From Burkholderia sp. BCC0506 (GTDB lineage: Bacteria; Pseudomonadota; Gammaproteobacteria; Burkholderiales; Burkholderiaceae): a stretch of DNA of 64,000 bases. The translations under genes were made by a program, and so were the position numbers. The stretch is taken from assembly GCF_902833145.1 (NCBI RefSeq), contig NZ_CADFEN010000005.1:62001-126000 (forward strand), read 5' to 3'. Under the pieces are notes generated by a model. It made no database searches. It saw only the letters and a list, made by a program, of their open reading frames with translations, and was not told where the DNA came from. How positions within the stretch are numbered: the stretch's first letter is position 1; every line of letters starts with the position of its first letter. Of this stretch, positions 1 to 9,747 are shown in pieces.

Positions 1-825
1 GCCATGTCCTGCCTGCTCGGTCTCGGCGTAAAGCGCGTGGCAAATGTCGAGCAGCGGCGACGCGATGCCGATGCCGCGCGCGGCTTCGGCGACGAGACGC
101 GCATTCTTCAGCACGTCGGTGATCGCGGCCTGCACCGAGAAGTCTTCCGCGACGAGCTTGCCGAGCTTCACGCGCGACACGTCGCTGGCCATCGGGCCGG
201 CGTTCAGCACATCGGCGAAGCGGGCGAGCTCGATACCGTGACGTTGCGCGAAATGCGTGGCTTCGGCGAGACCGGTGACCATCGTGATCAGGAACAGGTT
301 GACGGCGAGCTTCATCGTCAGCGCCGACGGCACGTCGCCGCACACGAAGCTGTCGCGGCACAGCGGCTTCACGAGCGTGCGCACGGCATCGACGTCGTCC
401 GGTGCGCCGGCCAGCATCACGACGAGCTGACCGGCTTCGGCCGGCTTGCGCGAGCCCGATACCGGCGCCTCGACGTAGCGGCCGGACGCGGCGGCGATTT
501 CGTCGGCGAGCGCGCGCGAGTATTCGGGCGCATTCGTGCCCATGTTGACGATCGTGTGTCCGCCGACCCGGGCGGCAAAGGCGGCCGTGCCGCGTGCGAG
601 CACGGCATCGATGGCCGCGTCGTTCGCGAGCATCAGGATCACGGTGCGGCAGGACGCGAATACGTCGTCGATGCCCTCGGCCACCCGTGCGCCGGCGGCG
701 CGCAGCGCGTCGTCGCTGCCGTGCGAACGGCTCCACACGACGAGCGGCGTGCCGGCCCGCGCGAGATTGAGCGCCATCGGCGTGCCCATCACGCCGAGGC
801 CGATGAATCCGACTGCGGTTTGCAT
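1..825 (-). CDS. NAD(P)-dependent beta-hydroxyacid dehydrogenase (3-hydroxyisobutyrate dehydrogenase-like), partial
   Basis: The reading frame starts with ATG at 825 and stays open to the window edge, so the C-terminus is missing (275 codons present). The N-terminus has the Rossmann dinucleotide motif GFIGLGVMG (about residues 6-14). An APVSGSRKPAEAG segment near the middle is the substrate-binding signature of the 3-hydroxyisobutyrate/tartronate-semialdehyde reductase family, and KLAVNLFLI carries the catalytic lysine expected there. It lies 105 bp downstream of the DUF971 gene on the same strand, so it may be the last gene of the unit that begins at 8204 or may be separately expressed. The substrate cannot be told from sequence; family members reduce or oxidise small beta-hydroxy acids. 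Confidence 0.85.
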   Translation of the reverse strand, partial: MQTAVGFIGLGVMGTPMALNLARAGTPLVVWSRSHGSDDALRAAGARVAEGIDDVFASCRTVILMLANDAAIDAVLARGTAAFAARVGGHTIVNMGTNAPEYSRALADEIAAASGRYVEAPVSGSRKPAEAGQLVVMLAGAPDDVDAVRTLVKPLCRDSFVCGDVPSALTMKLAVNLFLITMVTGLAEATHFAQRHGIELARFADVLNAGPMASDVSRVKLGKLVAEDFSVQAAITDVLKNARLVAEAARGIGIASPLLDICHALYAETEQAGHG

Positions 826-930
826 GGTACGGCTCCCACGGTGGGTGAGACGATCGTGGGCGTCAGTATCGCAGCGTTTTCATACGCCCGCCATCCGGCC
901 CGCGCGACCGCGGAAGCCGCGTCGTCGTCG

Positions 931-1209
931 CTACGCGAGGTCCGCCAGGTACGGCCACGGATAAATGCCGCGGGCATGGCCGTCGCCGAACAGGAAGCGG
1001 ACACCGTAGCCGAGCGCTTCCACGCCGTCGAGCGTCAGGTCGGGCCGCGCGTCGACGTGGCCGCCGTCGAGCCGGATCTTTCGGCATTCCGCGCACGGGC
1101 AACCGCCGCGCAATTGCACGTAGTCGATACGTTGCGACGCGCCGTCGGACCAGCGCAGCGTCAGTGTGCGCGCCGGGTGATCGAGTGCGATTTCGGTCGG
1201 CGCGATCAT
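931..1209 (-). CDS. DUF971 (gamma-butyrobetaine hydroxylase N-terminal-like) small protein
   Basis: A 92-residue protein consisting only of a DUF971 domain. A C37-x-C39-x2-C42 cluster within GGCPCAEC is the zinc-binding pattern of this domain. DUF971 is known as the N-terminal domain of gamma-butyrobetaine hydroxylase and as a C-terminal domain in some Mrp/HCF101-type Fe-S carrier proteins. No hydroxylase domain follows here. The ATG at 1209 overlaps the stop of the HEAT-repeat gene by 4 bp, so the two are probably translationally coupled. Placed with an AprAB-like iron-sulfur flavoenzyme, a role in assembling or docking that enzyme is an inference only. Confidence 0.85.
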   Translation of the reverse strand: MIAPTEIALDHPARTLTLRWSDGASQRIDYVQLRGGCPCAECRKIRLDGGHVDARPDLTLDGVEALGYGVRFLFGDGHARGIYPWPYLADLA

Positions 1210-2219
1210 CGCGATGCCTCGTCGATCTGTCCGATCGCGATCCGCACGGCCTTGCGGACGTCGGGGTCGCGATCGTCGAGTGCGTCGTGCAGCGCGGGCA
1301 GCGTTGCGCGGTCGCGCAGTTCGCCGAGCGCAAGCGCGGCTTCCTTGCGCAGGTTGCTGATCGTATGCGAGAGCAGCGCGACGACGGCCGGCGCCGCAGC
1401 CGCATCGCGCAATTGCCCGAGTGCGCGCGCGGCGCGCAGGCGCACCTGCCAGTAGTCGTCGTCGAGCGCGGCGACGAGCGGCTCGCGTGCGGTCGCGATG
1501 CGCAGCTTGCCGAGCGTGGTCGCCGCTTCCTCGCGCACTTGCCATTCGGCGTCACGCAGCGCCGCGAGCAACGCGGTGACGACGGTGGCGTCGCCCGCCG
1601 CCGCAAACCCGATCGCGCCGACCGCGGCGCGCCGCACGTCCGCGTCGGTGTCCGCGGTCGCGACGCGGGCGAGCGGCGGCAGCGCGCGGTCGTCCTTCAG
1701 CCAGCCGAGCACGACGACCGCCTCCGCGCGCACGGCCGCGGCGCTCGCGTCGAGCGCGCGCAGCGCGGGCGCGAACGCGTCGGGGTCGCGCAACTCGCGC
1801 AAGCCGCGCAGCACGGCGCCGCGCACGAACGGCTCGGACCGGTCGGCCCATCGGCACAGCACGGCGCCCGATGCGGCGTCCTTCAGTTCGGACAGGCTCT
1901 GCGCGGCGGTCGTGCGCACGCCGTCGTCCGGGTCGAGCAGCGCGCGGCACAGCGCGTCGACGACATCGGGCTGCTCCCACGCGCCGAGCACGTGCGCGGC
2001 CTCGCTGCGCACGTCGGCCGACGGGTCGTCGCGTAGCGCCGCGATGAACGACGGCACGAGTTCGGGCGCCTCGAGATCGGCGAGTTCGAGCAGCGCGATG
2101 CGGCGCACCGACGCATCGGCTGCGGCGAGGCGCGCGACGAGCGCGGCACGATGGGGGTGTTCGGCGTGTTCGGCGGCCGGCACGCCGGGCAGCGGAATAG
2201 CGGAGGAAGAAGCGGTCAT
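1206..2219 (-). CDS. HEAT-repeat (PBS-lyase-type) protein
   Basis: A 337-residue protein built almost entirely of about nine or ten helical repeats of about 30 residues with the pattern D-x-D-x-x-V-R-x-x-A-x-x-x-L-G (for example DPSADVRSEAAHVLG and DAEWQVREEAATTLG). It has no signal peptide or membrane segment, so it should be cytoplasmic. Repeats of this kind act as protein-binding scaffolds or, in the phycobilisome lyase group, help attach cofactors. It starts 39 bp after the ABC ATPase gene and its stop overlaps the DUF971 start. The context suggests an accessory or maturation partner for the transporter/flavoprotein unit, but function is not known. Confidence 0.85.
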   Translation of the reverse strand: MTASSSAIPLPGVPAAEHAEHPHRAALVARLAAADASVRRIALLELADLEAPELVPSFIAALRDDPSADVRSEAAHVLGAWEQPDVVDALCRALLDPDDGVRTTAAQSLSELKDAASGAVLCRWADRSEPFVRGAVLRGLRELRDPDAFAPALRALDASAAAVRAEAVVVLGWLKDDRALPPLARVATADTDADVRRAAVGAIGFAAAGDATVVTALLAALRDAEWQVREEAATTLGKLRIATAREPLVAALDDDYWQVRLRAARALGQLRDAAAAPAVVALLSHTISNLRKEAALALGELRDRATLPALHDALDDRDPDVRKAVRIAIGQIDEASR

Positions 2220-2258
2220 GGGAAAAAGTCGGTGCGGTGAATGGGCGGGCGCGTGCGC

Positions 2259-3047
2259 TCAGGCGGCGTCGCGCAACAGCGCGAGGCAGCGGCGCTTGAT
2301 GTCGACGAACGCGGGCTCGATTGTGCTGTCGTCGGTACGGGGCCGCGCGAGCGGCACGCGAAGGTCGGCGACGATGCGCGCGGGCCGCGGCGACAGCATC
2401 AGGATGCGGTCGCCGAGAAACAGCGCTTCCTCGATGTCGTGCGTGACGAACAGCACGGTCGTGCCGATGCGCGACCAGATGTCGAGCAGCAGCGTCTGCA
2501 TCATCCGGCGCGTTTGCGCGTCGAGCGCGCCGAACGGCTCGTCCATCAGCAGCACGCGCGGCCGGTTGATCAGCACGCGGGCGATCTCGACGCGCTGCTG
2601 CATGCCGCCGGAAAGCTGCGCGGGGTAGTGCGCACCGAAACCGCCGAGCCCGACGAGTTCGAGCAGTTCGGCCGCTTCTCGGCGGCGCTCGTGCGCGGGC
2701 ACGCCTTTCATCTTCAACCCGAACGCGACGTTGTCGATCACGCGCTTCCACGGAAACAGCGTGTGCTGCTGGAATACGAGCCCGCGATCGGGATGCGGGC
2801 GGTCGACCGGTTCGCCATCGACGACGATTTCGCCGCGCGTGGCCGCGACGTGCCCGGCGAGCGCGCCGAGCAGCGTCGATTTTCCGCAGCCGGACGGGCC
2901 GAGCACGCAGACGAATTCGCCGGGCGCGATGTCGACGTCGAGCGCATCGAGCGCCGCGACGCGCGCATGCGGCGGGCCCAGTTCGATCGTCAATGCGCGC
3001 ACGCCGACGCGACCGGCAGCGGGCGATGCGATGTCCGCGGTGCTCAT
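2259..3047 (-). CDS. ABC transporter ATP-binding protein, NitT/TauT/SsuB type
   Basis: A 262-residue ATPase of the nitrate/sulfonate/taurine importer class. Walker A is GPSGCGKST (50-58), the signature is LSGGMQQR (from 145), Walker B is RVLLMDEP (164-171) with a D-loop following, and the switch histidine is in VTHDIEEA (H203). It powers uptake through the membrane protein encoded just upstream. Its ATG at 3047 overlaps the permease stop by 4 bp, which supports this start over longer in-frame extensions. The ligand of the importer is unknown; family members carry sulfonates, nitrate/cyanate, thiamine precursors and other small anions or heterocycles. Confidence 0.93.
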   Translation of the reverse strand: MSTADIASPAAGRVGVRALTIELGPPHARVAALDALDVDIAPGEFVCVLGPSGCGKSTLLGALAGHVAATRGEIVVDGEPVDRPHPDRGLVFQQHTLFPWKRVIDNVAFGLKMKGVPAHERRREAAELLELVGLGGFGAHYPAQLSGGMQQRVEIARVLINRPRVLLMDEPFGALDAQTRRMMQTLLLDIWSRIGTTVLFVTHDIEEALFLGDRILMLSPRPARIVADLRVPLARPRTDDSTIEPAFVDIKRRCLALLRDAA

Positions 3048-3919
3048 CGCCGCCCTCCGCGCGGTGCGTACCACGGCGTGAGCGCCGCGCCGATGCGCTT
3101 GACGAGCAGGCTGCTGCCCATCCCGAGCAGGCCGATCAGCGCCATGCCGACCACGATGTCCGGGTAGTTCTGCAACGTATAGGATTCCCACGTGAAATAG
3201 CCGATCCCGTACTGGCCCGCGATCATCTCGGCCGTGACGAGGCAGAACCACGCGGTGCCCATCCCGATCGACAGGCCCGTGAAGATCGACGGCGCGGCGC
3301 CGGGCAGGATCACCTCCGCATAGAGCGCGAGGCCGCGCGTGCCGAGGCTGCGCGCGGTCGCGACGAGCCGCGGGTCGACCGCTTCGGCGCCGTGCACGGT
3401 GTTGAGCAGGATCGGAAACAGCGCGCCGACGAACGTGATGAACATCATGCTCAGCTCGGACGACGGAAACATCAGGATCGCGAGCGGAATCCACGCGACG
3501 GCCGGAATCGGCCGCAGCATCTCGAGCGGCGGCAGCAGCGTGTCTTCGAGCGCGCGATAGCGGCCGATCGCGAGGCCCAGGCCGATGCCGGCGAGCGCCG
3601 CCGCGACGAAGCCGGCCAGCACGCGCGTGAGGCTCGCGAACAGGTGCATCGGCAGCTTCGGCGATTGCAGGAACGAGGCCAGCGCGGGCCCGACGTCGGC
3701 CGGCGCGGGCACGTTCGCGAACGTGACGATGCCGAACGACAGCCGCCAGTGGACGGCCGCTTGCCACAGCGCGATGCACGAGACGAGCGATGCGATCCGC
3801 CACGCGCGGCGGCGCATCGGTGTCGGGCGGTGGCGTGCGGCGGGATGCGGCGAAAGGGCGCCGTCGGTGCGCGGTGCGTCGGTGGGGCGGCGTTTGACGA
3901 GGTCGAGGGTGGCGGCCAT
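3044..3919 (-). CDS. ABC transporter permease, NitT/TauT/SsuC type
   Basis: A 291-residue inner-membrane protein with about six transmembrane helices and the typical BPD_transp_1 cytoplasmic loop (EVILPGAAPSIFTGLSIGMG, the EAA-type motif that docks on the ATPase). A preceding stretch GLGLAIGRYRALEDTLLPPLEMLRPIPAVAW is the characteristic SsuC/TauC-like block. The start at 3919 (MAATLDLV) was chosen because the longer frame begins with an unlikely Arg/Pro-rich extension, although no strong ribosome-binding site is visible. It ends overlapping the ATPase start and begins 46 bp after the binding-protein gene. Confidence 0.9.
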   Translation of the reverse strand: MAATLDLVKRRPTDAPRTDGALSPHPAARHRPTPMRRRAWRIASLVSCIALWQAAVHWRLSFGIVTFANVPAPADVGPALASFLQSPKLPMHLFASLTRVLAGFVAAALAGIGLGLAIGRYRALEDTLLPPLEMLRPIPAVAWIPLAILMFPSSELSMMFITFVGALFPILLNTVHGAEAVDPRLVATARSLGTRGLALYAEVILPGAAPSIFTGLSIGMGTAWFCLVTAEMIAGQYGIGYFTWESYTLQNYPDIVVGMALIGLLGMGSSLLVKRIGAALTPWYAPRGGRR

Positions 3920-3965
3920 GCGGGAGTCCGGTGTCGACGAATGGAAAGAGGCGGGCGTGCGACGT

Positions 3966-5390
3966 TCAGCGTGCGGCGAGCGCCGGCGCGGTGACGGTCT
4001 TCGCGGCCGCATAGTCGACCACCGCGCCCGATACCTGCTGCGCGTACGCGTCGGCGCCCGACCTCAGCAGGAACGCGGTCAGCGCGCCGTGCGCGTCCTT
4101 CACGTACCACGCCTGGTCGGCGAACAGCTTCAGGCCGCTCGCATGGTCGTGCACGAATACCGCGCGCACCTTCGCGGCGGGCCCGAGCTGGCCGAGTGCC
4201 GCAAAGGCGGCCGCGGGGCTCGCATAGTGGCGCACGGCTGCGTCGCCGGCGAGCCAGACCTGCGCGACGTCGTTGAAATCGCGGATCGGCTTGCCGGTCG
4301 CCGCATCGTTCGCGACGAGCGGTTGCTTGCCGTAGTGTTTCAGCGCCGCGTCGTAGTCGAGCCCCGACGCCTTGAACGCCGCGCGGATATAGCGATCGTC
4401 GACGAACGTCGCGGGGTCGGGCGCGGTGTCGGTCTTCTTCAGCAGCTTCAGCGTGTCGATGGCCGTCGCGACCGCTTGCCGGTATTCGGGCTTCCAGGTC
4501 AGGTCGCGGGTCTGGATGCCGAGCGGCCCGTGATACAGGTAGTCGACCGGCGCCTCGATGCCGGTGACCTTCTCGATCAGCAGGCTGTACTTTTCCGGGT
4601 TCTGCGCGAGCAGGCGGTTCGCTTCGATCGCGGCGCGCAGGTAGGCGACCACGATTTCCGGATAGCGCTGCGCATAGTCCGCGTCGACGAGCGCGCCGTG
4701 GAAGGTCGGCGCGTGGGTCTGCGCGCCGTCGTAGATCTTGCGCGCGATGCCGCGGTACGGGAACAGGTCGGCGAACGGCACGAAGTCCGCATGCGCGTCG
4801 ATCCTGTTCGCCTTCAGCGCGCTGCCGGCCACTTCCGGCGCCTGCGTGACGATGTTCACGTCGGTGTCGGGGTTCCAGCCCTGGGCCTTGATCGCGCGCA
4901 GCAGCATGCCGTGCGCGGTCGACGCGAACGGTACCGAGATCGTCTTGCCCTTCAGGTCGGCCAGCCCGCGCACCGTCGAATTCGACGGGACGACGATCCC
5001 GTTGCCGCTGCCGTCGATACTGCCGTCGAGCACGGTGATGAACACGCTGCGGCGGCCGGCCTTGCGGAACGCGGCGCCGTTCAGCGCACCGGGGAAATCG
5101 GCCATCGCGCCGAAGTCGAGCTTGCCGGCGACCATCTCGTTGGTCAGCGGCGCGCCGGACGTGAAATCCTTCCACTGGACGTCGTACTTCACGTCCTGGT
5201 ACTCGCCGGTGTGCGGCAGGTATTTGTCGAGCAGATGCAGTTCGCGGATCAGCAGGCCGCCGGTCGCGCAGTTGATCGTCGTGTCCTGCGTGCCGATCGC
5301 GACGCGGATCGTCTCCGCATGCGCGAAACCGGCGGCCGCGACCGCGAGCGACGCGGCGAGCAGGCGGAACATCCGTAGCGTGGTGTTCAT
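3966..5390 (-). CDS. ABC substrate-binding protein with C-terminal NosL-like domain
   Basis: A 474-residue periplasmic protein. Residues 1-25 form a Sec signal peptide ending AHA. Residues 26 to about 350 are an NMT1/TauA-type binding protein (ETIRVAIGTQDTTINCATGG, then LKGKTISVPFASTAHGMLLRA). Residues from about 373 to 465 do not belong to that fold. They read like NosL, the copper-binding accessory protein of nitrous oxide reductase: a VWLAG strand, a YASP segment, AVFVHDHASG (413-416 VHDH), DQAWYVKDAHGALTAF and a final GAVVDYAAA. The NosL Cys-Gly-Met copper motif is absent. It sits between the permease and ferredoxin genes. The importer assignment is firm; the NosL likeness is by eye and needs a profile search. 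Confidence 0.85.
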   Translation of the reverse strand: MNTTLRMFRLLAASLAVAAAGFAHAETIRVAIGTQDTTINCATGGLLIRELHLLDKYLPHTGEYQDVKYDVQWKDFTSGAPLTNEMVAGKLDFGAMADFPGALNGAAFRKAGRRSVFITVLDGSIDGSGNGIVVPSNSTVRGLADLKGKTISVPFASTAHGMLLRAIKAQGWNPDTDVNIVTQAPEVAGSALKANRIDAHADFVPFADLFPYRGIARKIYDGAQTHAPTFHGALVDADYAQRYPEIVVAYLRAAIEANRLLAQNPEKYSLLIEKVTGIEAPVDYLYHGPLGIQTRDLTWKPEYRQAVATAIDTLKLLKKTDTAPDPATFVDDRYIRAAFKASGLDYDAALKHYGKQPLVANDAATGKPIRDFNDVAQVWLAGDAAVRHYASPAAAFAALGQLGPAAKVRAVFVHDHASGLKLFADQAWYVKDAHGALTAFLLRSGADAYAQQVSGAVVDYAAAKTVTAPALAAR

Positions 5391-5440
5391 GTGTCGTGAG
5401 TCCGGTAGTGGGAAAGCGGGGCGCGGGTTGGCGCGCCGTG

Positions 5441-5686
5441 TCAGCGCAGCAGGTAAGGGATGTCGACCTTGACCGCGCCGGTGGGGCAGTCGCGCTCGCA
5501 CGGCATGCAGTACCAGCATTCGTCGAACTGCATGTAAGCCTTGCCCTTGGTGACGTCGATCGCGAGCAGGTCGAGCGGGCACACGTCGACGCACACGGTG
5601 CAGCCCTTGTCGGCGATGCACAGCGACTCGTCGATCGTCACGGGCGCGCTGCTGCGCTGGAAGATGTCGTGCGGGGTATGGGGCAT
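5441..5686 (-). CDS. 2x[4Fe-4S] ferredoxin, AprB-like
   Basis: An 81-residue protein with two cysteine quartets: C23-x5-C29-x2-C32-x3-C36-P and C57-x2-C60-x2-C63-x3-C67-P. Both are [4Fe-4S] binding patterns, and the layout with a longer first spacing resembles the beta subunit of adenylylsulfate reductase, though without that subunit's long C-terminal tail. It begins 11 bp after the stop of the flavoprotein gene, so it is very probably the electron-transfer subunit of that enzyme. No signal peptide is present; the complex would be cytoplasmic. Confidence 0.92.
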   Translation of the reverse strand: MPHTPHDIFQRSSAPVTIDESLCIADKGCTVCVDVCPLDLLAIDVTKGKAYMQFDECWYCMPCERDCPTGAVKVDIPYLLR

Positions 5687-5697
5687 GGCAGGGGTCC

Positions 5698-7437
5698 TCA
5701 AAGGGCGGCCGCGAGCGCGGCCGGTTCGCGGATGCGCAACTGCGCGTAGGCGCCGCGTTCGTCGTCGGCGAGCGGCACGACGTACGGTTCGACCGGTCGC
5801 TTCTCGCTGCGCATCGCGCCTGCCGCGTCCTTGCGCAGCCACGTATGGCAGAACCATTCGGCGTCGTTGCGATGCGGAAAGTCGACGCGATGGTGGTACA
5901 GCCCCCAGCGGCTCTCGGTGCGGAACAGCGACGCGCGCGCGGCCATTTCGGCGCAGTCGCGGATCGCGCGCACTTCGGCCGCCCGCATCAGCTCGTGCGG
6001 GTTGTCGGCCTTGATTTCTTCGATATCCTCAGTAATTCCGTCAAAACGTTGCAGCCCGATTTCCATCTTGCGCGTCACCTTCGGCGGTTGCAGGTAGTCG
6101 TTCACCATCCGGCGCAGCTTGTACTCGACCTGCGCCGGCGCGAGGCCGCGCTCGCGCAGCAGCGGCGCGAACACGCGGGTGCGCTCGGTATCCACCTGTT
6201 CGTCGTCCACCGGCGCGTGGTCGCGGCCGGCCACGTAGTCGGCCGCGTTCTGCCCGGCGAACCAGCCGTACGTGAACGCGCCGAGCATGTAGTTGTGCGG
6301 AACGGCCGCCATGTCGCCGGCTGCGTACAGCCCCGGCACGGTCGTCTCCGCGCGTGCGTTCACGTACACGCCCGATGCGCTGTGGCCGCTGCACAAGCCG
6401 ATCTCGGAGATGTGCATCTCGACCATCTGGCTGCGGTAGTCGGTGCCGCGCCCCGCATGGAAGCGGCCGCGGCTCGGCCGTTCGTTCGTATGCAGGATCT
6501 GCTCGATGGTCTGGATCGTTTCTTCCGCGAGATGGTCGAGCTTCAGGAACACGGGACCGTTGCCGCTTTGCAGTTCCTGGTAGAACTCCCACATCATCTG
6601 GCCGCTCCAGTAGTCGCATTCGATGAAGCGTTCGCCCTTGCCGTTCGCGGTGAAGCCGCCCAGCGGTCCCGTCACGTACGCGCACGCCGGGCCGTTGTAG
6701 TCCTTGATCAGCGGGTTGATCTGGAAGCATTCGAGGTTCGCGAGCGCGGCGCCCGCGTGATAGGCCATCGCGTAGCCGTCGCCCGCATTGGTCGGGTTCT
6801 CGTACGTGCCCATCAGGTAGCCCGATGCCGGCAGACCGAGCCGGCCGGCCGCGCCGCAGCAGAGGATCACGGCCTTCGCGCGGATCACGTGGAAGTCGGC
6901 CGTGCGGCAGTCGAAGCCGAGCACGCCGCTCGCGCGGCCCTGCGCGTCGGTCAGCACGCGCGTCGCGACGATGCGGTTCGTGATCGCGATGCGCGCACGC
7001 TTCAGTTGCCGGTACAGCACCTTCTTGATGTCGTGTCCTTCCGGCATCGGCAGCACGTACGAGCCCATGTGGTGGACCTTCTTCACCGCGTAATCGCCGG
7101 TGCCGTCCTTCTCGAACTTGACGCCCCAGCGGTCGAGCTGCTCGATCGTCGTGAAGCTGTGCGTCGCGTACGCGTACACGGCTTCCTGGTCGACGATCCC
7201 GTCGTTGGCGATCGTGATCTCGCGCGTGTACTGCTCGGGCGTCGCGTGACCGGGGATCACCGCGTTGTTCAGGCCGTCCATTCCCATCGAGATCGCGCCG
7301 CTGCGTTTCACGTTGGCCTTCTCGAGCAGCAGCACGCGCAGGGACGGATCGCGCTCCTTCGCCTTGATGGCCGCCATCGGGCCGGCCGTACCGCCGCCGA
7401 CCACGACGATGTCGTATTCGTGCACATGGGTGTTCAT
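5698..7437 (-). CDS. FAD-dependent oxidoreductase, fumarate reductase/AprA-like subunit
   Basis: A 579-residue flavoprotein of the succinate dehydrogenase/fumarate reductase/AprA superfamily. The FAD-binding Rossmann motif DIVVVGGGTAG lies at residues 9-19, an LLLEKANVKRSGAISMGMDG block follows (as in AprA), and the second FAD region GLYAAGDMAAVPHNYMLGAFTYG lies near residue 370-400. A C-terminal helical domain holds RTESRWGLYHHRVDFP. The protein is shorter than genuine dissimilatory AprA. Its ATG at 7437 overlaps the stop of the GntR gene by 4 bp. With the ferredoxin it should form a soluble two-subunit redox enzyme; the substrate is unknown and could be a sulfur or nitrogen compound brought in by the adjacent importer (inference). 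Confidence 0.9.
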   Translation of the reverse strand: MNTHVHEYDIVVVGGGTAGPMAAIKAKERDPSLRVLLLEKANVKRSGAISMGMDGLNNAVIPGHATPEQYTREITIANDGIVDQEAVYAYATHSFTTIEQLDRWGVKFEKDGTGDYAVKKVHHMGSYVLPMPEGHDIKKVLYRQLKRARIAITNRIVATRVLTDAQGRASGVLGFDCRTADFHVIRAKAVILCCGAAGRLGLPASGYLMGTYENPTNAGDGYAMAYHAGAALANLECFQINPLIKDYNGPACAYVTGPLGGFTANGKGERFIECDYWSGQMMWEFYQELQSGNGPVFLKLDHLAEETIQTIEQILHTNERPSRGRFHAGRGTDYRSQMVEMHISEIGLCSGHSASGVYVNARAETTVPGLYAAGDMAAVPHNYMLGAFTYGWFAGQNAADYVAGRDHAPVDDEQVDTERTRVFAPLLRERGLAPAQVEYKLRRMVNDYLQPPKVTRKMEIGLQRFDGITEDIEEIKADNPHELMRAAEVRAIRDCAEMAARASLFRTESRWGLYHHRVDFPHRNDAEWFCHTWLRKDAAGAMRSEKRPVEPYVVPLADDERGAYAQLRIREPAALAAAL

Positions 7438-8204
7438 CGCGGGTTCCTTGCAGGTTTGCGCGCCTTCTGCCGGTCGACGCGCAACCGGTACTGGAAGGCG
7501 TCGCCGCGGAAATACAGGTATTCGTAGTCGATCGGCGCACCCGACGCGTCGTGCGTGAGGCGCTCGATACGCAGCACGGGGCTGCTTTCCTCGACGTGCA
7601 GCGCGTCGACGATTTCGTCGTCCGCGAGGATCGCGTCGATCGACACGTCGGCATGGCCGAGCGGGATGCCGCAGTCGTTCTCCAGGATCAGGAAGATGTC
7701 GCGGGTCGCGAGATCGGCGCCCGCGAGGCGCTTGCCGAGCGCTTCCGGCACCCAGGTCTGTTCGAGCGACACGGGTTCGCGGTTCAGCAGCCGCACACGA
7801 TGGATCTCGACGAGCGGCGCGCCTTCGGGCACGTTCAGCTTCGTCGCGAGATGGCGGTCGGCCTTCACGGTGCGCAGGCTGCGCAACTGGTTGACGATCT
7901 CGTAGCCCATCGACGACATCGCCTCGGCGAACCCCTGCAACGACGTCACGTTCTGGAACGCCTTCGGCTTCGACACGAACGTGCCCTTGCCGTGCAGCTT
8001 GAACAGCAGGCCCTCCTTCTGCAGGTCGCCGAGCGCCTGGCGCACCGTGATGCGGCTCACGTCGAACATCGCGCAGAGTTCGTGCTCGGACGGCATCCGG
8101 CTGTGCGGCGCATAGGTGCCGTCGAGAATGCGCGCGCGCAGCATGTCCTTGATCTGCACGTAGAGCGGGGCCGCGGACAGCGGCACGACGTTGGGTGGGG
8201 GCAT
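7434..8204 (-). CDS. GntR family regulator, HutC/FarR (UTRA) subfamily
   Basis: A 256-residue repressor-type regulator. The N-terminal winged helix-turn-helix (about 12-78) contains the GntR signature MPSEHELCAMFDVSRITVRQAL and a GKGTFV wing. Residues about 98-245 form a UTRA ligand-binding domain (VEIHRVRLLNREPVSLEQTW, PVLRIERLTHDASGAPIDYEYLYFRGD). It is the first gene of the unit and overlaps the flavoprotein start, so it probably controls its own operon through the palindrome 8-21 bp upstream of its start. The effector is likely the imported substrate or a product of the flavoenzyme. Confidence 0.92.
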   Translation of the reverse strand: MPPPNVVPLSAAPLYVQIKDMLRARILDGTYAPHSRMPSEHELCAMFDVSRITVRQALGDLQKEGLLFKLHGKGTFVSKPKAFQNVTSLQGFAEAMSSMGYEIVNQLRSLRTVKADRHLATKLNVPEGAPLVEIHRVRLLNREPVSLEQTWVPEALGKRLAGADLATRDIFLILENDCGIPLGHADVSIDAILADDEIVDALHVEESSPVLRIERLTHDASGAPIDYEYLYFRGDAFQYRLRVDRQKARKPARNPR

Positions 8205-8211
8205 GGGTCAA

Positions 8212-8225
8212 CTTGTTATGACAAG
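8212..8225 (-). promoter_or_regulatory. Putative GntR operator (inverted repeat)
   Basis: The 14-bp site CTTGTTATGACAAG has perfect 5-bp arms CTTGT/ACAAG around a 4-bp centre. It lies just upstream of the gntR start, downstream of the predicted -10 box, near the expected transcription start. HutC/UTRA-type GntR proteins bind short palindromes of this size. The position suits autorepression. Confidence 0.6.
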
Positions 8226-8233
8226 ATGGAGCG

Positions 8234-8262
8234 AGTGTAGCCAGCGCGATGGCGGGCCCCAA
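8234..8262 (-). promoter_or_regulatory. Putative promoter of the gntR-flavoprotein-ABC unit
   Basis: On the minus strand TTGGGG (8262-8257) and TACACT (8239-8234) are separated by 17 bp, a sigma70-like arrangement. The predicted start falls next to the 8212-8225 palindrome. The remaining intergenic stretch to 8511 shows no other clear signal, and the promoter of the divergent MFS gene was not identified. Confidence 0.45.
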
Positions 8263-8511
8263 CCAACTATTTCTGATTTCGAATTTCCCGTTCCGGCAAA
8301 GCGGGGCGACAGGGTGACGGGCGGCCGGGCGGGCGCGTGATCCGGCCCTTGCGAGCCGCGCGGGATCGTCGACAATCAAAACCGCGGTCTCATGCGTCGC
8401 GCATGTCGATTTCCCGATGCGTCGCCCGTCGTGTCGATATCGACCGGGCAGCGCCGCGCCATCCGGCCGGCACCGGTTTCCCGAATGGCGCAACGAACGA
8501 GGAGAGGCCAC

Positions 8512-9747
8512 ATGACACGCCACATGTCGAATTCCCGATACCGCTGGGTGATCGTCGCCGCGGGCGGCCTGATGGGCTGCGTCGCGATCGGCGCGATGTT
8601 CTCGTTACCGGTCTTCCTGCGGTCCATCGCGCGCGAGACGGGCTGGTCGATGACCGGCATTTCCGCCGCGATGACGCTCGGCTTCATCGCGATGGCCTTC
8701 GCAAGCATGGCGTGGGGCAGCCTGTCGGACCGCGTCGGCACGCGGCCGGTCGTCGTCGCGGGCGCCGTGCTGCTGTCGGCGAGCCTGGCGCTGGCGAGCC
8801 GCGCCCCGTCGCTGCTCGTGTTCCAGCTGACCTTCGGCCTCGCCGTCGGCAGCGCGACCGCCGCGATATTCGCGCCGATGATGGCGTGCGTGACCGGCTG
8901 GTTCGACACGCACCGCAGCCTGGCGGTGTCGCTGGTGTCGGCCGGCATGGGGATGGCGCCGATGACGATGGCGCCGCTGGCCGCCTGGCTCGTATCAGTG
9001 CGCGACTGGCGCACGTCGATGCTGCTGATTGCCGCACTGGCGGCCGTCGTGATGATTCCCGTGTCGCTGCTGGTGCGGCGGCCGCCCGCGCTTGACGCTG
9101 CGCCGGCGCACGCAGTGCCCGCGCCTGCGCCCGCCGGCGCGCCCGCCGCGATGTCGGTCGCCGATGCGTTGCGCTCGCCGCAGTTCATCGTGCTCGTGCT
9201 GACCAATTTCTTCTGCTGCGCGACGCATTCGGGCCCGATCTTCCATACGGTCAGCTACGCGGTGACCTGCGGGATTCCGCTGATCGTCGCGGTGTCGATC
9301 TACAGCGTCGAAGGGCTCGCGGGCATGGGCGGCCGGATCGCGTTCGGGATACTCGGCGACCGTCTCGGCGCGAAACGCATGCTGGTGGCGGGGCTGCTCG
9401 CACAGGCGCTCGGCGCGCTCGGCTACTACTTCGTGCGCACGCTCGACGGCTTCTACGCGGTCGCGACGTTGTTCGGCTTCATCTACGCGGGCGTGATGCC
9501 GCTGTATTCGGTGCTCGCGCGCGAGAATTTTCCGCTGCGGATGATGGGCACCGTGATCGGCGGCTGCGCGATGGCCGGCAGCCTCGGAATGGCCGCGGGC
9601 CCGGTCGCCGGCGGCCTGATCGTCGATGCATTCGGCAGCTACGGCTGGCTGTACGTCGGATCGTTCGCGATCGGGATCGGCGCGTTCCTGATCGCGACGC
9701 TGTTCCGTCCGTTCGCGAAAGCGCGCCCGGAAACGGTGGCGGCGTAG
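8512..9747 (+). CDS. MFS transporter
   Basis: A 411-residue polytopic membrane protein with about twelve helices. The loop 2-3 motif GSLSDRVGTRPVV and its C-terminal counterpart FGILGDRLGAKRMLVAG are the major-facilitator signatures. The start at 8512 is set by a GAGGAGAGG ribosome-binding site 5-12 bp upstream; longer in-frame starts would place the first helix far from the N-terminus. It is transcribed divergently from the GntR-led unit, 307 bp away, so it may serve the same substrate or its product, but nothing in the sequence identifies the cargo. It resembles the monocarboxylate/oxalate-type MFS group in general form. Confidence 0.88.
   Translation: MTRHMSNSRYRWVIVAAGGLMGCVAIGAMFSLPVFLRSIARETGWSMTGISAAMTLGFIAMAFASMAWGSLSDRVGTRPVVVAGAVLLSASLALASRAPSLLVFQLTFGLAVGSATAAIFAPMMACVTGWFDTHRSLAVSLVSAGMGMAPMTMAPLAAWLVSVRDWRTSMLLIAALAAVVMIPVSLLVRRPPALDAAPAHAVPAPAPAGAPAAMSVADALRSPQFIVLVLTNFFCCATHSGPIFHTVSYAVTCGIPLIVAVSIYSVEGLAGMGGRIAFGILGDRLGAKRMLVAGLLAQALGALGYYFVRTLDGFYAVATLFGFIYAGVMPLYSVLARENFPLRMMGTVIGGCAMAGSLGMAAGPVAGGLIVDAFGSYGWLYVGSFAIGIGAFLIATLFRPFAKARPETVAA

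Follow-up and report, generated by a model that had tools for sequence, protein, structure and literature searches.

A candidate self-regulated operon for scavenging a sulfonate-like compound, centred on an AprA-type flavoprotein, in Burkholderia sp. BCC0506

Analysis of a 64,000-nucleotide stretch of Burkholderia sp. BCC0506 (contig NZ_CADFEN010000005.1, positions 62,001 to 126,000; "the window" means this whole stretch) showed eight open reading frames (ORFs), all on the minus strand. From the first gene, gntR, onwards they code for a GntR/UTRA regulator, an AprA-like flavoprotein, a small ferredoxin, the substrate-binding protein (SBP), permease and ATPase of an ATP-binding cassette (ABC) importer, a HEAT-repeat protein and a DUF971 protein. 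The results support this gene set as a coherent, recurrent system that is present on chromosomes and on plasmid records. In our estimate the chances are about even that it is a self-regulated scavenging operon, in which a sulfonate-like compound would be imported and cleaved reductively by a ferredoxin-driven AprA-type enzyme, with sulfite set free. More tentatively, and with somewhat less confidence, the enzyme is proposed to represent a new class of ferredoxin-driven, oxygen-independent desulfonases that use the AprAB scaffold and a HEAT partner and serve aerobes, cyanobacteria and actinomycetes. The known assimilatory routes through SsuD and TauD use O2.

The system was followed through 116 loci longer than 12 kb that carry the flavoprotein gene. 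They comprise 79 closest relatives (the best 80 of 589 matches, without L020 because of its insufficient length), together with 20 stretches from genomes, 16 from plasmids and a single region from Nonomuraea. These loci span Pseudomonadota, Cyanobacteria and Actinomycetota and are far from independent, 83 being from Burkholderiaceae (one titled only Burkholderiales). Within 9 kb of the flavoprotein gene, which is what "near" means in all counts on the 116 loci, the ferredoxin was found in 116, the HEAT protein in 114, the DUF971 protein in 103, gntR in 91 and the SBP in 62. An Mrp/NBP35 gene was near the flavoprotein in 3 loci other than the DUF971 loci, giving 106 of 116 with one or the other; at least two of the 10 loci with neither in reach are truncated by a contig end (L069, L073). 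Among 398 Pseudomonadota genomes (NF006131 over cut-off for the flavoprotein, SBP profile at E<=1e-60), 21 contained the flavoprotein and 20 the SBP, and all 20 were among the 21. Both groups cover the same ten genera, and the hypergeometric probability of the overlap, uncorrected for kinship, is about 8e-33. In one genome (G028), 2.9 Mb of contig separate the two genes. The rare co-occurrence that the preliminary description of this DNA had named as speaking against a system was not seen, whether for the ferredoxin (116/116), for the HEAT protein (114/116) or among the SBP genomes (20/20).

Membership of the set was retained, and gene order was reshuffled from lineage to lineage. The order gntR, flavoprotein, ferredoxin, ABC genes, HEAT, DUF971 is shared by Burkholderia and Acinetobacter; rhizobia and Methylobacterium have DUF971, flavoprotein, ferredoxin, HEAT, with a Crp/Fnr regulator and an ABC set located apart; and two cyanobacteria have flavoprotein, ferredoxin, HEAT, Mrp with ABC genes and a LysR regulator. 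Its recurrence in three phyla makes the gene set more than a chance arrangement; a chance gene cluster was rejected on this ground and on the co-occurrence of SBP and flavoprotein in genomes. In PLSDB, 53 plasmid records had a flavoprotein match, 48 of them covering at least 80%, and some of the records are chromosome-sized. The flavoprotein of the window shares 99% identity (best segment) with a record of B. cenocepacia, and other presumed cepacia-complex records reach 94-97%. In a Nostoc plasmid (L115, 9707-12888), two HAD hydrolases, a methyltransferase, a GNAT protein and a VOC protein are encoded between the flavoprotein and ferredoxin genes, and these inserted genes possibly hint at the substrate.

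The flavoprotein (5698-7437, minus strand, 579 aa) is the putative catalytic subunit and is predicted to bind flavin adenine dinucleotide (FAD). It scored 1153.7 bits on NF006131 (PRK08275), well over the cut-off of 587. It fell below the curated scores of AprA (TIGR02061, 183.1 bits, cut-off 641.75), of 3'-phosphoadenosine 5'-phosphosulfate (PAPS) reductase of the MtPAPSR type (PRK06854, 287.5 bits, cut-off 557) and of succinate dehydrogenase/fumarate reductase (SDH/FRD; TIGR01812, 165 bits, cut-off 567.3). The closest solved chain was MtPAPSR alpha (8a8o, 209 bits), followed by AprA. Rows of the family (44) were aligned with MtPAPSR, eight AprA rows and two paralogues from the host, and E. 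coli FrdA and SdhA were added in a further alignment; Asn57, His352 and His381 were conserved in the family as in AprA. All 44 family rows have Leu243 and Tyr212 in place of Arg265 and Trp234, which we take to be the numbers of two functional residues of A. fulgidus AprA, the Arg presumably serving the sulfo group; MtPAPSR and all eight AprA rows have both the Arg and the Trp. At the position of what we take to be AprA Glu141, the 44 rows had His (26), Glu (8), Lys (5), Asp (4) or Ala (1). The catalytic RDxV and HGANR segments of E. coli SdhA/FrdA were absent from six family rows read off the alignment, and the motifs TYEN, QINPL, DYWSGQM, ERP(S/T)RG and PHNYM were common to the six.

The preliminary description had called for a tree placing the flavoprotein among AprA, FrdA and L-aspartate oxidase. 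This was built from 55 rows, and it grouped the eight AprA rows and MtPAPSR behind a single 100/100 branch. SdhA/NadB and AprA joined the family at two separate points, the family had a single origin in 8% of 200 bootstrap trees, and with two outgroup branches of length 10 the root could not be placed. Since the tree cannot place the root, the identity of the enzyme is argued from scores and residues. A dissimilatory or assimilatory adenosine 5'-phosphosulfate (APS) or PAPS reductase was rejected on the missed curated scores and the lost Arg265, and SDH/FRD on a score under cut-off and the missing catalytic segments. Judged by its sequence, the flavoprotein is an AprA-type redox engine with a pocket predicted to differ, which agrees with the earlier view of an AprA/AprB-like enzyme that is not AprA, as the architecture is shared and the AprA scores and Arg265 are lacking. 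The product name in the annotated records examined, fumarate reductase/succinate dehydrogenase, is not supported by these comparisons and appears to be a misannotation. Elsewhere in the host, two PF01507 genes (presumably cysH and cysD) lie side by side, and therefore sulfate reduction should not need the flavoprotein.

The ferredoxin subunit (5441-5686, minus strand, 81 aa, 8 Cys; PF12838, 34.6 bits) is AprB-like and predicted to hold two [4Fe-4S] clusters. Its best NCBIfam match was aprB (TIGR02060), at 38.3 bits short of the cut-off of 135.65. The motif CW-x-C-x2-C-x3-C was present in 116 of 116 loci; the spacing of the eight Cys was uniform in 111, and the other five also had 8 Cys, with a shorter first gap. 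The two subunits thus show the AprAB-like architecture of FAD plus 2[4Fe-4S], and they probably form a complex.

The HEAT-repeat protein (1206-2219, minus strand; PF13646, 208.7 bits, five stretches) matched positions 591-894 of PRK13800, a family of flavoprotein-HEAT fusions (E 1e-23). In Tsukamurella and Nonomuraea (Actinomycetota), flavoprotein and HEAT are in a single frame of 893 and 940 aa, which scored 1568.1 and 1586.5 bits, respectively, on PRK13800 (cut-off 1196); these were the only loci among the 116 without a separate HEAT gene. Because of this gene fusion the HEAT protein is proposed to be a physical partner of the flavoprotein. The DUF971/GBBH-like_N protein (931-1209, minus strand; PF06155, 68.9 bits, cut-off 22.8) carries CxCxxC, a motif found in 93 of 103 DUF971 loci. 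In three cyanobacterial plasmids without DUF971 nearby, the HEAT gene is followed by Mrp/NBP35, with domains PF10609 and PF01883, of a type that we take to be joined also in HCF101. Because Mrp/NBP35 occupies its place in cyanobacteria, the DUF971 protein is proposed to be a helper in Fe-S maturation or docking. The ties of HEAT to the enzyme and of DUF971 to Fe-S maturation in the preliminary description were thus strengthened, the one by fusion and the other by position. Two further PF06155 genes were found in the host genome (G000, C7 and C10), and the operon copy may be a dedicated paralogue.

The importer consists of a periplasmic SBP related to TauA/SsuA (3966-5390, 474 aa), a permease (3044-3919; PF00528, 74.7 bits) and an ATPase (2259-3047; PF00005, 112.4 bits), all on the minus strand. 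All three are below the curated TauABC/SsuABC scores: the SBP reached 114 bits on SsuA_fam (cut-off 163.5), the permease 115.6 on TauC (cut-off 342) and the ATPase 251.9 on TauB (cut-off 357). The best NCBIfam matches of the permease were ntrB, SaoP, SsuC and TauC, all below cut-off. Four solved relatives of the SBP were below E 1e-8, namely TauA (6ssy, 62.5 bits), two proteins that bind sulfonate and one that bears the name nitrate transport protein; the best two bind taurine and sulfonate. The NitT/TauT type that had been proposed for the importer is supported. In a cepacia-complex locus without ABC genes (L011, 11887-12282, plus strand), a weak SBP match of 78 bits lies between the ferredoxin and HEAT genes and is perhaps a remnant of ABC loss. 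In another genome (G012:C1, 11986-13341), the SBP reading frame is interrupted by one TGA, which is either a broken copy or a sequencing error.

According to the part of the report on TauA that was available, Gln30 and the backbone of Gly61, Gly79 and Thr132 contact the sulfonate, and Glu106, Thr132 and Asp205 bind the amine (PMC6906117). In 18 of 18 SBPs from three phyla Gln35 and Gly79 were invariant, and the positions of the amine-binding Glu106 and Asp205 were Asn130 and His231. SBP Gly79 aligns to TauA Gly61; SBP Gln35 aligns to the Gln of SsuA GYQ, which pairs with TauA Gln30, although the multiple alignment instead put Gln35 at TauA residue 19. The SBP is therefore predicted to retain the sulfonate-coordinating Gln and Gly, and not the taurine-amine residues. 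Two cyanobacterial LysR regulators of 666 and 678 aa (L114, 5676-7676, and L123, 7379-9415, both minus strand) have an SBP-like C-terminal domain, in which Gln35, Gly79 and Asn130 are retained by both regulators and His231 by one only; this domain might be a ligand sensor.

The preliminary description had left the substrate as a sulfur- or nitrogen-containing compound, and of the two, sulfur is favoured because of some neighbouring genes and the SBP site. It is quite unlikely that a small nitrogen compound (nitro, N-oxide or cyanate-like) is imported to supply nitrogen and that the flavoenzyme reduces it. The ntrB (145.1 bits) and ntrCD (219.2 bits) scores of permease and ATPase, both under cut-off, would fit such a substrate, as would the one nitrate transport protein among the four solved SBP relatives, the ammonium transporter/GlnK genes near the Aquabacterium cluster, and the amidases and GNATs in a few clusters. 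The taurine and sulfonate ligands of the top two solved relatives and the kept sulfonate Gln argue against it, and sulfite/sulfate-type exporters recur in several lineages, nitrogen genes not having been queried as a class.

Neighbouring genes were compared between 20 genome neighbourhoods (18-19 kb) and 40 control stretches of 19 kb at positions chosen by us in the same 20 genomes. Ferredoxin reductase (FNR) was found in 9/20 neighbourhoods against 0/40 controls, FdxA in 4/20 against 0/40, YeiH in 6/20 against 0/40, TauD in 2/20 against 1/40, and rhodanese and amidase each in 1/20 against 0/40; SrpI was in 0/20 and 0/40. The nine FNR loci all belong to genomes of classes other than that of the window, and the independent events are fewer than the counts. 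FdxA and FNR stand next to the Methylobacterium cluster, and FdxA with a GltD-like flavoprotein/oxidoreductase (606.6 bits, under the cut-off of 1072) next to that of A. caldus. Because of the FdxA and ferredoxin reductase neighbours the reductive direction is favoured. The earlier model of import followed by redox conversion is partly supported; it is refined to reduction by these neighbours, and the importer as an obligatory part does not stand.

Exporter genes recur beside the cluster. YeiH was also present in two cyanobacterial plasmids, and TauE/SafE adjoins the cluster in Aquabacterium, Pseudanabaena and Leptolyngbya (Pfam-confirmed in two of the three). A very unlikely explanation is detoxification, by which the flavoenzyme would dispose of toxic sulfur species (sulfite, reactive thiosulfonate) and not feed growth. 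The TauE/SafE and YeiH-type exporters, a chromate exporter adjoining the Acinetobacter copy and the presence of the system in A. caldus are in keeping with it, but an SBP importer that accompanies the enzyme in 20 of 21 Pseudomonadota genomes would be odd for a pure detoxifier.

Among 68 Burkholderiaceae loci longer than 20 kb, SrpI encapsulin was found in 8, its cysteine desulfurase in 7 and NtaA/DmoA-type monooxygenases in 8-9, with much overlap. Genes for SrpI type 2A encapsulin, cysteine desulfurase, hexapeptide transferase and rhodanese occur in L046, L084, L038, L039, L041, L042 and L045 (and in L035, below 20 kb), and L077 has SrpI only; these SrpI loci are from Burkholderiaceae other than the cepacia complex. 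The host of the window carries SrpI and four NtaA/DmoA-family genes over cut-off elsewhere in its genome. One control stretch (L188) with NtaA/DmoA, TauD and SfnB-like genes lies on the same contig as the cluster of that genome, about 22 kb away. Such oxygenases bear on an improbable explanation in which sulfonate is imported, but the flavoenzyme reduces another bond (enoate, ketone) or acts oxidatively, and neighbouring monooxygenases or TauD free the sulfur. It draws on the NtaA/DmoA monooxygenase, SfnB-like and TauD neighbours of some lineages, on SDH/NadB-like motifs of the flavoprotein (QINP replacing QFHP, and GERF) and on the lost sulfo-binding Arg of AprA. However, these oxygenases are missing from most neighbourhoods examined, importer and enzyme co-occur even in genomes without an oxygenase neighbour, and the SDH/FRD catalytic Arg segments are missing from the flavoprotein.

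Several observations weigh against reductive release of sulfite from an imported sulfonate. The replacement of Arg265 in 44 of 44 rows means that the family lacks the sulfo-group site of AprA; close to the lost Arg in sequence stands a Glu213 that is new and invariant. The AlphaFold model of the flavoprotein (14 close sequences) had a mean predicted local distance difference test (pLDDT) of 49.9, and its pocket is not inspectable. TauE, NtaA/DmoA and SfnB-like genes were each found in 0/20 neighbourhoods and in 1/40 controls; one genus accounts for five of the six YeiH loci, and the sulfur neighbours are patchy and partly follow kinship. The 20 neighbour queries had no match in cepacia-complex loci (L011-L028 over 20 kb, L144), and therefore the lineage of the window itself is without such a sulfur neighbour. 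SrpI is induced on sulfur starvation, and S. elongatus knock-outs of SrpI and cargo grew without defect, as far as the available part of that paper goes (PMC8049743); because the knock-outs show no growth defect, SrpI is a weak functional pointer. The SBP was missing within 9 kb in 50 of 83 Burkholderiaceae loci, and 16 of 17 tested genomes of such loci had no SBP anywhere (E<=1e-40). The enzyme can thus be kept without the importer, and the importer as a standing, obligatory part of the system, as first described, was rejected. The habitat of A. caldus is, we assume, rich in inorganic sulfur, so this organism should not need scavenging. No expression or biochemical data on the system were found in the open-access literature. 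The proposal is weakest in its sulfo-group chemistry, because the Arg is lost, and in the case of A. caldus.

Self-regulation is suggested by the sequence around gntR. The GntR/UTRA (HutC-type) regulator gene (7434-8204, minus strand; PF00392, 77.1 bits; PF07702, 133 bits) is preceded, immediately 5' of its start codon, by a 14-bp operator-like palindrome, CTTGTCATAACAAG (8212-8225), which is the single match to CTTGTN4ACAAG in the window (chance 0.01). CTTGTYATRACAAG was found at one place only in the 7.29 Mb genome, and because of this the regulator appears dedicated to its own operon. Of the 91 loci with a placeable gntR start, 72 have the core TTGTN4ACAA in the 300 bp that precede gntR, against 0.012 expected per 300 bp; these loci are related, and the motif was chosen after inspection of the window. 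The core is missing there from 19 loci, among them every one of the six Ralstonia loci (L085-L090) and of the three Cupriavidus loci (L079, L082, L120), and most of the more remote loci.

In the proposed mechanism, the GntR/UTRA protein would act as a repressor on this single operator and be released by the substrate or product. The SBP would capture a small sulfonate-like oxyanion other than taurine, and the ABC importer would deliver it to the cytosol, where flavoprotein and small 2[4Fe-4S] subunit would form an AprAB-type complex. Electrons may pass from NAD(P)H through ferredoxin reductase and ferredoxin to the two clusters and on to FAD, and the reduced flavin would split a C-S, N-S or O-S bond, most likely leaving sulfite for ordinary sulfite reductase. 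AprA-type chemistry is an attack of FAD-N5 on sulfur, according to the portion of the source seen (PMC10322725). The HEAT protein would be a structural partner of the flavoprotein, and DUF971 (Mrp/NBP35 in cyanobacteria) would help to load or keep the Fe-S clusters.

ORF analysis reproduced the eight genes of the preliminary description with their direction, coordinates and three 4-bp overlaps (gntR/flavoprotein, permease/ATPase and HEAT/DUF971); the remaining junctions are 11, 50, 46 and 39 bp. Its domain assignments also held on Pfam and NCBIfam, which gave GntR with UTRA, FAD_binding_2 with Succ_DH_flav_C, 4Fe-4S dicluster, NMT1_2, BPD_transp_1, ABC_tran, HEAT_2 and PF06155. A beta-hydroxyacid dehydrogenase gene (1-825, minus strand, start codon at 825) continues past the left end of the window and corresponds to L215:11941-12825. 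The top NCBIfam match was 2-hydroxy-3-oxopropionate reductase (152.5 bits, below the cut-off of 340.75). The gene lies 104-145 bp beyond the DUF971 match in 11 other loci, and farther in a 12th, and is a possible ninth co-directional operon gene in the Burkholderia cepacia complex. Terminator-like sites were absent from the minus strand at 700-8200, the plus strand having two, fewer than shuffles, and a scan of 8150-8450 showed no sigma-70-like promoter. A divergent MFS transporter gene lies at 8392-9747 (plus strand), with L-lactate MFS transporter and the oxalate/formate antiport family as best NCBIfam matches, both below cut-off.

On this evidence, a flavoprotein labelled fumarate reductase/succinate dehydrogenase would be the core of a separate scavenging system. 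Reductive desulfonation, if true, would provide an oxygen-independent route of sulfur acquisition and a role for the conserved HEAT/DUF971 pair, and the pairing of importer and enzyme is a testable handle on the substrate even if this is not a sulfonate. Plasmids of 'Fervidacidithiobacillus caldus', including pTcM1, have been described with a 'ferredoxin/APS reductase/GntR' module and a NitT/TauT-type sulfonate transporter, for which organosulfonate assimilation was predicted (Figure 6 legend; PMC12375680, 2025). That account is short and concerns one species, and its available part does not mention the HEAT-repeat protein, DUF971/Mrp, the cross-phylum spread or the non-APS-reductase nature of the enzyme. 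Among the matches listed in the open-access literature, which leaves subscription papers and preprints outside the scope, there was no other description of the system. Added here are the cross-phylum system, the importer-enzyme pairing, the HEAT fusion, the DUF971/Mrp exchange, the operator-like site, the evidence against an APS reductase and the electron-donor neighbours.

Compared with known systems, the operon resembles AprAB in its flavoprotein and small 2[4Fe-4S] subunit, in the kept N57, H352 and H381, in a similar C-terminal LFRxE(S/T)RWxxYxxRxD motif and in the Trp beside the Fe-S Cys residues of the small subunit. It differs in that the flavoprotein is 28% and 26% identical to the two AprA rows measured, Arg265 and Trp234 are replaced by Leu243 and Tyr212, the beta subunit is short and no sulfate adenylyltransferase is among the operon genes. 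MtPAPSR of Methanothermococcus (8a8o), the closest solved relative, is an assimilatory use of the AprAB scaffold, as far as the accessible part of its description goes (PMC10322725), but identity is 29% over the printed residues and MtPAPSR keeps the Arg265 equivalent, which the operon flavoprotein does not. The flavoprotein is a full member of PRK08275, and in PRK13800 a flavoprotein of this kind is fused to HEAT, although the product name fumarate reductase/succinate dehydrogenase is unsupported, the SDH/FRD segments being missing. TauABCD and SsuABCDE share with the operon the importer type and the sulfonate-binding Gln and Gly of the SBP; in the operon, by contrast, the ligand-amine residues are replaced, all three importer scores are below cut-off, and the enzyme is an Fe-S flavoprotein and not an oxygenase.

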